A DNA stretch of 64,000 nt. It comes from Halorubrum halophilum (lineage in GTDB: Archaea; Halobacteriota; Halobacteria; Halobacteriales; Haloferacaceae). The notes under the pieces were generated by a model. The model saw nothing but the letters and a program-made list of their open reading frames with translations. It was not told the DNA's origin and did not search any database. The position numbers were made by a program, and so were the translations under genes. Position 1 is the first letter of the stretch. Each line of letters starts with the position of its first letter. The DNA is taken from NCBI RefSeq assembly GCF_000739595.1, contig NZ_BBJP01000027.1, forward strand, positions 48,846-112,845. Direction: 5' to 3'. Below are positions 7,609 to 60,963 of the stretch, one piece after another.

Positions 7609-7983
7609 ATTTATAAATGAACGCGGCGGTGCGGTGGCGCGCGCCTCCGAGCGGCCGCCACCGGCGGCCGCGAGGAGCGCGTGCGAGGGAGTCGGCCGAC
7701 CGGAGCGAAGCGGAGGGAGGCCGACGAGGTTGGGGAGGTGTGAGGCTGCGGTGCGGTCGCGGGCGGGTGGGACTCAAAGGGGCAGCCGCGAGGCGGGCGC
7801 AGACGACGTAAGCACTGGAAGGGGCGAGCACCGCGAGCGACTGAAGCGCGCAACGAGTGTGCGCCCGCCTCGCGACTGGGGCTTTGGCGGTGTTCGTGGT
7901 GGATCCGTTGTCAGCTATTTATAAGTAAGCGGCTGGGGCTTTGGCGGTGCTCTCCGGTGATCCGTCAGTAACTGTTTATAAGC
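7609..7983 (+). repeat. dispersed structured repeat, copy A
   Basis: Noncoding element filling the gap between the convergent pheA and cysS genes. It starts at a TTATAA box (7611-7616) and reaches another at 7919-7924, followed by one extra tail unit ending in TTATAAG near 7982. Hairpin I is 7645-7677 (CTCC, GA, 9-bp stem, GA, GGAG). Hairpin II has arms 7691-7697 and 7719-7725. Hairpin III begins in the conserved block GGTGGGACTCAAAGGGGCAG (7766-7785) and closes at CTGGGGCTTTGGCGGTG (7876-7892), with an 18 of 19 bp inner stem. The same linkers recur in four other copies in this window. No credible protein is encoded. Confidence 0.9.
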
Positions 7984-8050
7984 GAGCGGCCGCGATTTCC
8001 GCTACTATCACCACATCGACGACCCTGCCGGTGAAACACGCGCTTCCGTC

Positions 8051-9547
8051 CTACTCGAACCGGTACGTCGCGCCGTCCGGGCCGTCCTCGATCTCGACGC
8101 CGACCTCCTGAAGCGCGTCCCGCAGGTCGTCGGCGCGCTCGTAGTTGCCCGCCTCGCGCTCGGCCTCCCGCACGTCTAACACGAGTTCGATCAGCTCGCC
8201 GGCCAGGTCTACGTCGCCGTCGGTTGCCGACTCGAACTGGAGCCCGAGCACGTCGCCGGCGAGGTCGTCGAACGCCTCGACCGCCTCGCGGAGGGCGCGG
8301 TAGTCGTAGGCGTCCGAAGCCCCGTCGTCGTCGTCCGCGCCGTCGATGTGCCGGTTCACCGCGTCGGTGAGGTCCAGGAGCGCCGCGGTCGCCTCCCGGA
8401 GGTTCAGGTCGTCGTTCATCGCGGCCGCGAAGTCCCCGCGGGCGGTCTCGACCGCCGCGCGGAGCTCCGCGTCCTCGGCCTTCGCGCGGGCTTCGGTGGA
8501 GTCCAGCGCCTCGACCGCGCGGTCGTAGGTCCGCGAGAGGCGCTCCCAGCGCTCCTCGGCCTCCGCGATCGTCTCCTCGGTGAGCGCCTGCTCGGAGCGG
8601 TAGGCGGCCCCGGCGTAGAAGGTCCGGACGACGTTGACACCGAGTTCGTCGAGGGCGTCCGGGACGGTCCAGAAGTTGCCGATCGAGGAGGACATCTTCT
8701 CGCCCTCCATCTCCAGCAGGCCGACGTGGAGCCAGTGGCGCGCGAACGTCTCGCCGGTGGCCGCCTCCGACTGCGCGATCTCGTTCTCGTGGTGCGGGAA
8801 GACCAGGTCGCGCCCGCCCATGTGGATGTCGAGCGTGTCGCCGAGATGGGTCGTCGACATCGCCGAGCACTCGACGTGCCAGCCGGGGCGTCCCTCGCTC
8901 CACGGGGACTCCCACGTCTCGCCCGAGGGCGTCTCCGCGCCGTGGTCGTGTTTCGCGTGTTCGCGCGCGGCGGCCTCGCTCACGCCGTCGGCCTTCCACA
9001 GCGCGAAGTCCGACGGGTTTCGCTTCTCCGACCGCTCGTCCGGTTCGCCCTGCGCCTCTAGGTCCTCGACGTTCTGGTTCGAGAGCTTCCCGTAGTCGTC
9101 GAACGCGGTCACGTCGAAGTAGACGGAGCCGTTCGACTCGTAGGCGTACCCCTTCTCGATCAGCGTCTCGACGAGCTCGCGGATCTCCGGGACGTGCTCG
9201 GTGACGCGGGGGTACACTTCGGCGCGTTTCAGGTTCAGCCCCCGCATCGCGTCGAAGGTGGTCGCGGTGAACGTCTCGGCCACGTCGCGCTCGGCCGCCC
9301 AGTCGTCGCGCTCGCCGACGCGGGCCGTGATCTTCTCGTTCACGTCGGTGACGTTCTCGACGTGGCGCACGTCGTAGCCGACGTGGTCGAGCCACCGGTG
9401 GAGCACGTCGGCGTGGAACCACAGGCGGGCGTGTCCGAGGTGGGGATCGTCCGACACCGTCAGGCCGCAGACGTACAGCGTAACGTCGCCGTCGGCCGTG
9501 AACTCGACGCGCTCGTCTTCCAGGGTGTCGGTAACGACGAGGCTCAT
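8051..9547 (-). CDS. cysS: cysteinyl-tRNA synthetase
   Basis: Charges tRNA-Cys with cysteine. It has 498 residues, a class I synthetase of normal length. The HIGH-type motif is HLGH at residues 36-39 and the KMSKS loop is KMSSS at 284-288. Expected zinc ligands are visible: Cys27 in LYVCGLT, Cys227 in WHVECSAM, and the PHHENE segment around 251-256. The C-terminal region is helical anticodon-binding sequence with an acidic haloarchaeal insertion (DGADDDDGASD). The start at ATG 9547 is supported by the immediate family N-terminus. It converges on repeat copy A and pheA. Confidence 0.97.
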   Translation of the reverse strand: MSLVVTDTLEDERVEFTADGDVTLYVCGLTVSDDPHLGHARLWFHADVLHRWLDHVGYDVRHVENVTDVNEKITARVGERDDWAAERDVAETFTATTFDAMRGLNLKRAEVYPRVTEHVPEIRELVETLIEKGYAYESNGSVYFDVTAFDDYGKLSNQNVEDLEAQGEPDERSEKRNPSDFALWKADGVSEAAAREHAKHDHGAETPSGETWESPWSEGRPGWHVECSAMSTTHLGDTLDIHMGGRDLVFPHHENEIAQSEAATGETFARHWLHVGLLEMEGEKMSSSIGNFWTVPDALDELGVNVVRTFYAGAAYRSEQALTEETIAEAEERWERLSRTYDRAVEALDSTEARAKAEDAELRAAVETARGDFAAAMNDDLNLREATAALLDLTDAVNRHIDGADDDDGASDAYDYRALREAVEAFDDLAGDVLGLQFESATDGDVDLAGELIELVLDVREAEREAGNYERADDLRDALQEVGVEIEDGPDGATYRFE

Positions 9548-9711
9548 TACCGTGGCGTTGCTACGGTGAGAGTTTTAACCCGTCGGATCGGGCAGACCGA
9601 AGCCGCCCGTTTTCGACTGTCGGGTTCACGCACTGGCCGTTCCGATCGTTCGAACCGGTCGCTCTGCGGGAGTGATCTGCAGGAGAAACGAAGGGCCGAT
9701 CGGCGATCTAT

Positions 9712-59158: not shown

Positions 59159-59206
59159 GCGGCGGATTCCCCGCAAGTTCACCGACCGCCGCGGAGGTAC
59201 CGGCCG

Positions 59207-60436
59207 GTGGCTGACGCCCTCCTCGAACTGGGGATCATGTTCACGGCGATCGCGGGCGTCGGCGCGCTCGCGAATCGCCTCGGCCAGTCGGTGATCCCCT
59301 TCTACATCGTGAGCGGGATGGCGCTCAGCGAGTTCGTGCTCGGACGCCTCTCGCTGCCGGTGCTCGGGACTACGTATATCCCCGAGTCCGAGTTCATCGA
59401 GATCGGCGCGGAGCTCGGGATCGTCTTCCTCCTGTTTTTCCTCGGACTGGAGTTCAACCTCGACCGGCTGCTCGCCCGGCGGCGCCAGATCGGGATCGCC
59501 GGGACGATCGATCTGGCGAACTTCGGCGCCGGGCTCGTCCTCGGCTGGCTCGTCTTCGGCGCGTTCCTGCCCGCGTTCCTGATCGCCGGTATCGTGTACA
59601 TCTCCTCGTCGGCGGTGATCACGAAGTCGCTCATCGACCTCGGCTGGATCGCCAACGACGAGGCGGAGCCGATGCTCGGCACCCTCGTCTACGAGGACCT
59701 GTTCATCGCGGTGTACCTCGCGGTCGCGTCCGCGATCGCGCTCGGCGGCGGCGACGTGGGGGCGGCGGTTGTCGACATCGGGATCGCGATCGCGTTCATC
59801 CTCGCCCTCCTGGCGCTCGTGTGGTACGGCACGCCCGGGTTCGCCAAGCTCGTCGAGACCGACAACCGGGAGTTCGTCGCGCTCCGGTCGATCGCGGCCG
59901 TCGTGTTAGTCGCTGGCGGGGCACTCGCGCTCGGCGTCAGCGAGGCGGTCGCGGCCTTCTTCGTCGGGATGGCGTTCGCCTCGACGGAGTACGCCCACGA
60001 GATCGAGGCGCTGCTCGAACCCGTCCGCGACACGTTCGCGGCGGTGTTCTTCTTCTGGATCGGACTCGTCACCGACCCGCTGCTGTTCGGCGGAGTGGCG
60101 GCGCTCGTCGCGCTCGCGGTCGTCGTGACGACGCCGACGAAGTTCGTCACCGGCTTCCTCGCCGGGCGCGCGTTCGACCTCGACACCAAGCGGTCGACCC
60201 GCGTCGCGCTCGGGATGACCACCCGCGGGGAGTTCTCGCTGATCATCGCGACGATCGCAGTGACCGCGGGCCAGGCCGGCGCGTTCGACCCGGCGGTCGC
60301 GCAGACGATCAATGCGTTCGCGGTCGGCTACGTGCTCGTGATGGCGATCCTCGGCACGACGCTGATGCAGTACTCCGAGCCGTTCGAGTCGATCGCGACC
60401 TCGTGGCTGGATGGTGGCGAGGGTGATCGCTTATAA
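59207..60436 (+). CDS. cation:proton antiporter (CPA2, KefB/KhtU-like)
   Basis: A 409-residue membrane transporter with about twelve helices. The core motifs include FLLFFLGLEFNLDRLLARRR, SSSAVITKSLIDLGWIANDE and GMTTRGEFSLIIATIAVTAG. It probably expels K+ or Na+ in exchange for protons under control of the preceding RCK-C subunit. It starts at GTG 59207. The stop codon TAA (60434-60436) is part of the TTATAA motif that starts repeat copy E. Confidence 0.93.
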   Translation: MADALLELGIMFTAIAGVGALANRLGQSVIPFYIVSGMALSEFVLGRLSLPVLGTTYIPESEFIEIGAELGIVFLLFFLGLEFNLDRLLARRRQIGIAGTIDLANFGAGLVLGWLVFGAFLPAFLIAGIVYISSSAVITKSLIDLGWIANDEAEPMLGTLVYEDLFIAVYLAVASAIALGGGDVGAAVVDIGIAIAFILALLALVWYGTPGFAKLVETDNREFVALRSIAAVVLVAGGALALGVSEAVAAFFVGMAFASTEYAHEIEALLEPVRDTFAAVFFFWIGLVTDPLLFGGVAALVALAVVVTTPTKFVTGFLAGRAFDLDTKRSTRVALGMTTRGEFSLIIATIAVTAGQAGAFDPAVAQTINAFAVGYVLVMAILGTTLMQYSEPFESIATSWLDGGEGDRL

Positions 60437-60963
60437 GTCGCTGACGGCGAGTCGGCGGTGAATTCCTCCAAAGCCACTGTCGATCGCTTTTAAGTGACTC
60501 CTGACGGATCGACGGCGAACACCTCCAAAGCCCCAGTCGCGACGACTCGGAGGCCTTGCTGCGCTCCTCAGTCAGTCGCTTACGCTCCTTCCCTGCGGTG
60601 CTTGCTGCGGCCGCCTTCGTCTCTCCGGGAGACTCCGTCTCCCGTGCCCCCGCTCGCGTTGCTCGCGGGGATCACGACTGCCCCTTTGAGTCCCACCCCG
60701 CACCGCCGGAAGACGGTCACCTCGCTTCGTCGCCGGGCTTCGCCCGGCTGCCTGCGAGACCGTCGGTCTCGCAACGCTCGGCGCTGCGACTTCCGTGCTC
60801 CCGCTCGCTATCGCTCGCGGGACCGCAACCGCACGGCCTCACGCCTCCCCAGCCTCGTCGGTGGTCCTCCGCGTTGCTCCGGACCACCGACTCCCTCGCG
60901 TGTGCCCCTCGCGCCCTTATCAGGGCGCTCGGCGGCACGCCCCACCGCCTCGTTTATTTATAA
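60431..60963 (-). repeat. dispersed structured repeat, copy E (expanded)
   Basis: Leftward copy between the convergent antiporter and DUF302 genes, 533 bp and the longest of the five. It runs from TTATAA 60958-60963 to 60431-60436. Conserved blocks lie at 60678-60697 and 60520-60536. Hairpin III starts CAGTCGTGA paired with TCGCGACTG (one G-U) and has larger nested hairpins. About 130 extra bases sit between hairpin II and the conserved core. Two tail units are present, the outer with TCCAAAGCCACTG (about 60467-60479). Noncoding. Confidence 0.9.

Follow-up and report, generated by a model that had tools for sequence, protein, structure and literature searches.

The 64,000-nucleotide stretch of the Halorubrum halophilum genome analysed here (the window; contig NZ_BBJP01000027.1, positions 48,846 to 112,845) carries five copies of a long intergenic repeat, which belongs to a dispersed family of about 140 copies. 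Our favoured explanation, which we hold at about even probability, is that these repeats are likely to fold and act as RNA, and that their spread probably took place in an ancestor of the genus, with the repeats as non-autonomous passengers constructed around a 3′ module; the same module ends a conserved noncoding region of haloarchaeal plasmids. From sequence we have the copy number, the modular build, the covariation and wobble asymmetry of the stems, and a 3′ domain that extends across the class and also closes the plasmid region; the loci examined are common to several species, while the interiors are hypervariable and show internal deletions.

Five window copies and a modular family

Each element consists of a 5′ part, containing hairpins P1 and P2, and a 3′ domain of about 130 nt (GGTGGGACTCAAAGGGGC, a variable stem P3 and GGGGCTTTGG), which was made into a covariance model of 129 positions, R1. 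The full order is a GGTGGCGCG block, P1, GAGGGAGTCG, P2, CGAGGCTGGGGAGGCGTGAGG, a G-rich joining segment, GGTGGGACTCAAAGGGGC, P3 and GGGGCTTTGGAGG, with P3 being a long hairpin that has a conserved inner part, AAGCACCGCA...GAGGAGCGCAGCGAG. The first-pass annotation of the window had proposed five such copies with ordered blocks, and direct reading and a block search located all of them, in that order and on the strands given here:

7609..7983, + strand: copy 1, counting the TTATAA boxes at its outer ends and a second tail unit on the 3′ side (direct reading, block search; GGTGGCGCGCGCC from 7633)
7633..7763, + strand: copy 1, 5′ part with P1, P2 and the G-rich joining segment (reading, block search, consensus fold)
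7764..7891, + strand: copy 1, 3′ domain with P3 (R1, 118.1 bits, E 9.7e-23)
23206..23508, - strand: copy 2 (reading, block search)
23371..23493, - strand: copy 2, 5′ part (reading, block search)
23242..23370, - strand: copy 2, 3′ domain (R1, 124.6 bits, E 4.6e-24)
26608..26912, + strand: copy 3 (reading, block search)
26624..26747, + strand: copy 3, 5′ part (reading, block search)
26748..26879, + strand: copy 3, 3′ domain (R1, 114.1 bits, E 6.6e-22)
40051..40363, - strand: copy 4 (reading, block search)
40215..40341, - strand: copy 4, 5′ part (reading, block search)
40084..40214, - strand: copy 4, 3′ domain (R1, 127.5 bits, E 1.1e-24)
60431..60963, - strand: copy 5, the longest, with extra hairpins in both parts and two tail units (reading, block search)
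60698..60946, - strand: copy 5, 5′ part, enlarged by a hairpin-rich insert (reading)
60520..60697, - strand: copy 5, 3′ domain between conserved blocks (blocks; R1, 78.3 bits, E 1.4e-14, the match spanning 60521-60648 only and leaving out the first block)

Within the window the 20-base block GGTGGGACTCAAAGGGGCAG occurs inside these five copies only, even with up to 4 mismatches. Across the source genome (3,677,984 bases in 103 contigs) it occurs 142 times (67 + 75) at up to 3 mismatches, and a reversed-pattern control occurs 0 times. The family is thus multi-copy, as had been supposed, but the extrapolation to one copy per 13 kb and hundreds per genome was too high: 142 copies in 3.68 Mb make about one per 26 kb, the element density in the window being about twice that of the whole genome.

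All five copies lie between predicted genes, as first described, with the outer limits of copies 4 and 5 touching a gene end by 4 and 6 bases. Mechanical open reading frames overlap them on both strands; since stem lengths vary between copies without keeping frame, however, we consider protein-coding unlikely, in line with the earlier description, this being a judgement from the length changes and no formal coding test. Separately, the GC-rich open frames at 7634-7924 (+), 40051-40350 (-) and 23141-23497 (-) begin right at the GGTGGCG block or no more than 10 nt from it, and an annotation could mistake them for genuine proteins.

For the anatomy of the family, 92 distinct copies of the 142 were gathered from fetched source-genome loci, 87 of them with recognisable 5′ and 3′ blocks; this sample is not random, being made up of the first 30 block matches, 40 more from that listing and others fetched via an inverted repeat (see below). 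Lengths among the 87, from the first block to past the last, cluster at 240-280 bases, and there is one tail unit in 66 copies, two in 17, three in 3 and none in 1. A script found P3 with an inverted inner part in 2 of the 87, and a third case (locus L080) was seen by eye. A TTATAA box lies within 35 bp upstream of GGTGG in 58 of the 87, beginning at -14 to -17 in 52 of these, and an AT-rich hexamer of some kind occupies those 35 bp in 65 copies, against 3 for a control interval further up. The TTATAA box that the first-pass annotation gave for the start and end of the copies is no fixed boundary, and copy 4 (at 40051) has none at its 5′ end.

A covarying fold and a class-wide 3′ domain

In an alignment of 41 copies (the modal length class minus odd ones, two with an inverted interior among them, and with two more omitted) the unpaired blocks are nearly invariant while the stems differ between copies. 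RNAalifold predicted 61 pairs in it, 35 of which have two-sided changes, and 34 pairs, 24 with two-sided changes, in a set of 15 sequences, 12 of them from other genera, from which sequences with another P3 interior had been excluded. Within the 3′ domain, 35 chosen rows have two-sided changes at 21 of 29 pairs, with 96.6% of cells paired, and a covariation score of 0.517, against 0.177 for shuffled rows (0 of 500 shuffles reached the real score) and at most 0.076 for slid ones; for the 15 rows the score is 0.611, the shuffled value 0.190 and the highest slid value 0.095, and their changes include one pair of the GAAAG:CUUUC helix that switches from G-C to C-G (the other-genus loci read have GAAAG:CUUUC where Halorubrum has CAAAG:CUUUG). 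Covariation beyond both controls is what is expected of a structured noncoding RNA, but the rows are related paralogues, which may exceed shuffles without structure, the structures were derived from the same rows, and the shuffles yield no probability.

The stems also carry information about strand. Among 213 distinct P3 stems (first 12 pairs, stems kept if at least 8 were Watson-Crick) there are 89 G.U and 15 A.C wobbles, and 13 and 3, respectively, among 86 stems of P2; at 61 loci on named contigs G.U exceeds A.C in 27 and the reverse holds in 1. These counts carry no probability because paralogue stems are non-independent. Strong covariation, together with this asymmetry of wobbles, points to a single-stranded fold of one strand, most simply RNA, and so it appears likely that the copies fold and act as RNA.

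Searches of haloarchaeal genomes with the block and with a covariance model, the check proposed at first, found relatives well beyond one genome. Allowing up to 2 mismatches, 205 of 391 class genomes contain the block, as do 44 of 46 in the same genus, and genomes that have it carry between 1 and 186 copies; Halorubrum is the commonest genus among the named contigs with the exact block, among the matches listed. At an E-value of 1e-4 or less, R1 matches 227 of 292 Halobacteria genomes, which represent 63 of 77 genera (at most 11 candidates were scored per genome, and these figures are no copy counts). In a phylum sample of 148 genomes it was found, at E up to 1e-3, in 20 of 24 class members and in 0 of the 124 outside the class (16 itemised, 108 counted only). 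Of 42 named non-Halorubrum loci, 25 were given to R1 and 22 match at E up to 1e-3, with Natrinema, Haloarcula and Halopiger among them and L161, L165 and L178 weak or partial; the loci without a match are Haloparvum L145, Haladaptatus L153 and a Bacteroidales contig, L155. The exact pattern in L155 we regard as chance, given 51.6% GC and no R1 match. At L127, L130-L132 and L136-L139, all from other genera, we also noted a second type of P3 interior, near CCCCTATC ... GATATGTC, which stands in place of the usual one and occurs with different 5′ parts. Viral contigs of IMG/VR, searched with the exact block, and phage records, searched with one copy, gave no match.

At curated cut-offs Rfam finds only a tRNA in the window; at E up to 1, five loci gave mir-4433 at 33.8 bits (cut-off 77) and a leuA-Halobacteria fragment outside the element, neither of them relevant. 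The mir-4433 (animal miRNA) match, at L122:450-515 (-), is likely to be chance on the spacer between paired domains. The available parts of a study of vesicle RNA (PMC10927574) and of one on Haloferax small RNAs (PMC5852579) do not mention the family, nor did we find a description in the literature searched, most subscription papers and supplements lying outside it. The first-pass view that no named family fits is supported to this extent, and its structured multi-copy intergenic family is real; it is not, however, a closed repeat of one genus, as the 3′ domain is class-wide and recurs in a plasmid region.

A plasmid region beside an RPA-like gene

With a 3′ domain from another genus as query, matches were found at 49 places in 40 plasmid records. 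In all six records that we opened, a divergent gene encoding a protein of 288-299 amino acids starts 464-554 bp upstream of the match. The protein has a C-terminal OB fold, as scanned in three of the six, and these three match the NCBIfam replication factor A family at E 1.9e-15 to 4.7e-14, far below the family cut-off, and Pfam PF01336 below its cut-off; we call the protein RPA-like as a putative assignment. It is found at 207 places in 154 plasmid records, and the noncoding region between its gene and the 3′ domain at 256 places in 170 plasmid records, with at least 80% cover in 42 of them; 59 of 116 class genomes also have the region. Among the 34 records common to the best 60 rows of both searches, the best matches of gene and region lie within 90 bp of each other in 31 and not in 3. 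HNH endonuclease genes adjoin the RPA-like gene on two of the six plasmids opened (L256:2323-3456 and L260:2457-3248); PADLOC gave nothing for the RPA-like protein, and weak matches for these two HNH neighbours.

Of 19 sequences aligned, 15 can be matched over about 620 nt of the region, and the alignment contains frame-breaking indels. R1, though built without sequences of this region, finds the 3′ domain at its 3′ end in 18 of 19 sources searched (of 37; chosen for length, plus pNRC100), always in the orientation of the region, with 11 matches at E 2.3e-12 or better and 7 between 5e-6 and 7e-4; one source, L255, has one weak extra match elsewhere. Some plasmids match the first ~500 bases of the region only. 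The 3′ domain is thus a module that is combined with different 5′ parts. Folding energies of the 620-bp region are -210 for the drawn strand and -193 for the other, and 18 of 156 predicted pairs have two-sided changes; choosing the strand by energy was judged too biased and was not used. Four plasmid loci gave no Rfam match at E up to 0.1. The stretch L255:4445-5120 (Haloprofundus pMHR1-2), a conserved noncoding region of about 620 bp that lies divergent from an RPA-like gene, is, like its counterparts in the 170 plasmid records, itself a candidate for a large RNA or an origin beyond its 3′ domain.

An unlikely extension of these findings would be an RNA system of haloarchaea not described before, in which an RNA of about 620 nt is made beside the plasmid RPA-like protein and works with it; its 3′ domain might be a portable recognition module from which short, SINE-like RNA satellites arose across the genome, with nearly 190 of them in a single genome of one genus.

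Age of the insertions and competing explanations

How the repeats came to their present places can be asked of single loci. For the copy 4 locus, 51 other genomes were searched, 29 same-genus loci fetched and 26 anchored; the blocks are recognisable in 18 of the 26, and several others keep 5′ or 3′ remnants. At the copy 3 locus, two of five relatives are filled (G194 and G198), two have the ends only (G344 and G065), and G355 has neither, a single TTATAA being left; TTATAA on both sides of the copy, against one in the G355 empty site, could reflect duplication as well as a deletion mediated by repeats. In several species that are more distant, the gap there is short and contains no element. 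A locus that has the upstream gene of copy 2 is filled in G194 and shows internal deletions in G344 and G355, and for copies 1 and 5 the locus was not judgeable in most relatives. One apparent lineage-specific insertion (locus 14) proved to be a false pattern match inside a coding gene. These comparisons across species show that the insertions examined are old and that their interiors turn over fast.

Several described kinds of element invite comparison. The palindrome-associated transposable elements (PATEs) of Haloquadratum walsbyi (PMC3119063) are the nearest described group that we found. As far as the available text of that paper goes, PATEs share with our repeats a short, noncoding, many-copy and heterogeneous nature, internal deletions, being struck by other small repeats, and palindromes near both termini (here P1 runs from column 7 of the alignment and P3 closes just before the last conserved block). 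According to the same text, PATE palindromes match IS605-type transposon ends, and PATEs have neither terminal inverted repeats nor a target duplication. Part of our family has such repeats, though 48 of 87 copies lack them on both sides, and its conserved, covarying 3′ domain spans the class. The initial caveat that the copies might be the noncoding ends of a known transposon was followed for the IS605-type elements of the source genome, where 2 of 33 loci (3 Y1 and 30 of 32 TnpB matches) have an element within ~1.5 kb, about 4 being expected by random placement on our own arithmetic, and otherwise there are short matches only; an IS605-type link, at chance level in this one genome, is not supported. 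Like bacterial repetitive extragenic palindromes and interspersed mosaic elements (REP/BIME), the repeats are high-copy intergenic palindromes, and in other haloarchaeal genera the 3′ domain forms head-to-head pairs 20-29 bp apart (L122, L174, L185, L201, L202 and L204, from Haloarcula rara and other haloarchaea); REPs, however, are of 20-40 bp (PMC3733652, as far as available) against about 250 bp here, and no head-to-head pair occurs in the source-genome loci L001-L120. Y1 transposases in the source genome number 3, counted in general and with no specific search for RAYT. Large bacterial structured RNAs and the OMEGA and HEARO RNAs resemble our family in its conserved unpaired blocks joined by variable stems, the large size of its plasmid region and its many solo copies, and the OMEGA RNA (reRNA) of TnpB is encoded next to its nuclease gene. 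Our family differs in having no relevant Rfam match and no tie to TnpB in the 33 loci above (IscB was not sought).

The most serious competitor, possible though in our view doubtful, is that the copies are purely DNA-level non-autonomous transposable elements, similar to PATEs or to miniature inverted-repeat transposable elements (MITEs), whose hairpins would be recognised as DNA by a transposase and whose covariation would reflect palindrome upkeep through template switching and conversion. With up to 3 mismatches allowed, the terminal inverted repeat GATAGCGGGAGTGGGTGT has 88 sites in the genome and 2 in the control. The sites frequently form pairs that flank a copy at a spacing of ~440-520 bp, and some pairs, the shortest of 122 bp, contain a core with deletions or no core at all. 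Counted as GATAGCGGGAGT among the 87 copies, it lies on both sides of 28, on one side of 11 and on neither side of 48, the share of 28 being too high because this repeat was itself used to fetch many of the loci. Because these 28 copies lie between terminal inverted repeats, part of the family does look transposon-like. As with MITEs, the copies are dispersed, short and intergenic, with a subset in ~440-bp units that have imperfect terminal inverted repeats, and few copies stand in divergent intergenic regions; units without the core block, core deletions that leave ends, and foreign hairpin inserts resemble the Haloquadratum PATEs, as these appear in the available text of PMC3119063. On the other hand, 48 copies lack the repeats, the conserved unpaired blocks and strand-asymmetric stems are unlike MITEs, the count at IS605-type loci is no higher than expected, and no transposase with shared ends was seen, although no dedicated search was made. 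Wobble asymmetry is unexpected of double-stranded DNA palindromes, but a strand-specific single-stranded intermediate could give it.

Two observations on these units may be recorded here. The 122-bp unit at L101:477-598 (G000:C81:208976-209097), in which the inverted repeats and a pair of TATA-like boxes are present and the core is missing, is the minimal form of the units bounded by inverted repeats. Small recurring hairpin inserts (GAGGGACCT..GGTCCCTC, for example) stand inside different copies at L262, L263, L275 and L285, as if mobile.

Quite improbable, we believe, is a host function in which the elements are RNA structures in mRNA 3′ ends (for termination, stability or processing) that are kept by selection. 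The copies do favour gene 3′ ends: by a simple codon-usage gene finder, 41 of the 87 lie between convergent, 33 between tandem and 11 between divergent genes (2 have no downstream gene in reach), whereas the window gaps no shorter than 60 bp, a small set for comparison in which gaps with elements are included, are 24 tandem, 9 divergent and 3 convergent. In 62 of 87 the copy has the orientation of its upstream gene, but in the other 25 the opposite one. In the 18 copy 4 orthologues the four blocks are 94.9% identical to the consensus (1162/1224), against 79.6% identity to our own gene at third codon positions of the neighbouring gene, and the P3 segment is ~65% identical to our own copy (17 measured); the block figure, however, is inflated by having picked the 18 for recognisable blocks, and exchange or conversion between copies also keeps blocks alike. 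Moreover, at one and the same locus several species have lost the interior, or the element entirely, and no T-run follows the 3′ end in the five window copies. Least probable of all, to the point of being remote, is a single-stranded DNA function (replication, conjugation or RPA loading), in which the 620-bp region and 3′ domain would fold as DNA bound by the RPA-like protein and the genomic copies would be derivatives, for while the proximity of gene and region in the 31 of 34 plasmid records and the wobble asymmetry both fit it, no RPA-like gene was seen beside the window copies (none was searched for beside the others).

The preferred explanation, an RNA-like family spread as passengers, must itself answer several points that count against it. 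For copy 3 (26624-26893) the fold z-score is -5.5 for the drawn strand and -7.1 for the opposite one, better than all 200 shuffles in both cases; with the opposite strand, too, folding much more stably than its shuffles, the strand cannot be picked from folding energy alone, and covariation in long palindromes can arise at the DNA level via template switching. The usual archaeal promoter spacing would place the start site inside P1, so that TTATAA at 14-17 bp before GGTGG may not be a promoter of the drawn strand. No clean recent insertion appeared in the syntenic comparison with five relatives, and no mobilising enzyme was found, within the limits of search stated above. Single copies look dispensable, since interiors are deleted in several species at loci that are filled in others. 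For the plasmid connection, a search of the source genome for the 620-bp region gave no match at E 1e-20, and pNRC100 (L351) has the RPA-like gene but no R1 match.

With these points in mind, we suggest an ancient, non-autonomous dispersed family, founded on a haloarchaeal RNA module, which would now be vertically inherited, exchanging interiors and decaying. The drawn strand would be transcribed, its conserved G-rich unpaired blocks might bind a protein, and such binding might have allowed copying of the elements in trans; gene conversion, with the conserved blocks as its anchors, could keep these blocks alike and swap the stems. Whether the short repeats descend from the plasmid region, or the reverse, is a guess.

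If the fold is that of an RNA, this would be an unusually numerous family of archaeal noncoding RNA, absent from Rfam, with relatives in most of the haloarchaeal genera sampled, Haloarcula and Natrinema among them. It joins three things that are unconnected in the literature searched: a chromosomal repeat, a class-wide RNA-like module, and a noncoding region in 170 plasmid records beside an RPA-like gene. Direct tests would then become possible of where archaeal intergenic repeats come from and of what the plasmid RPA-like genes do.

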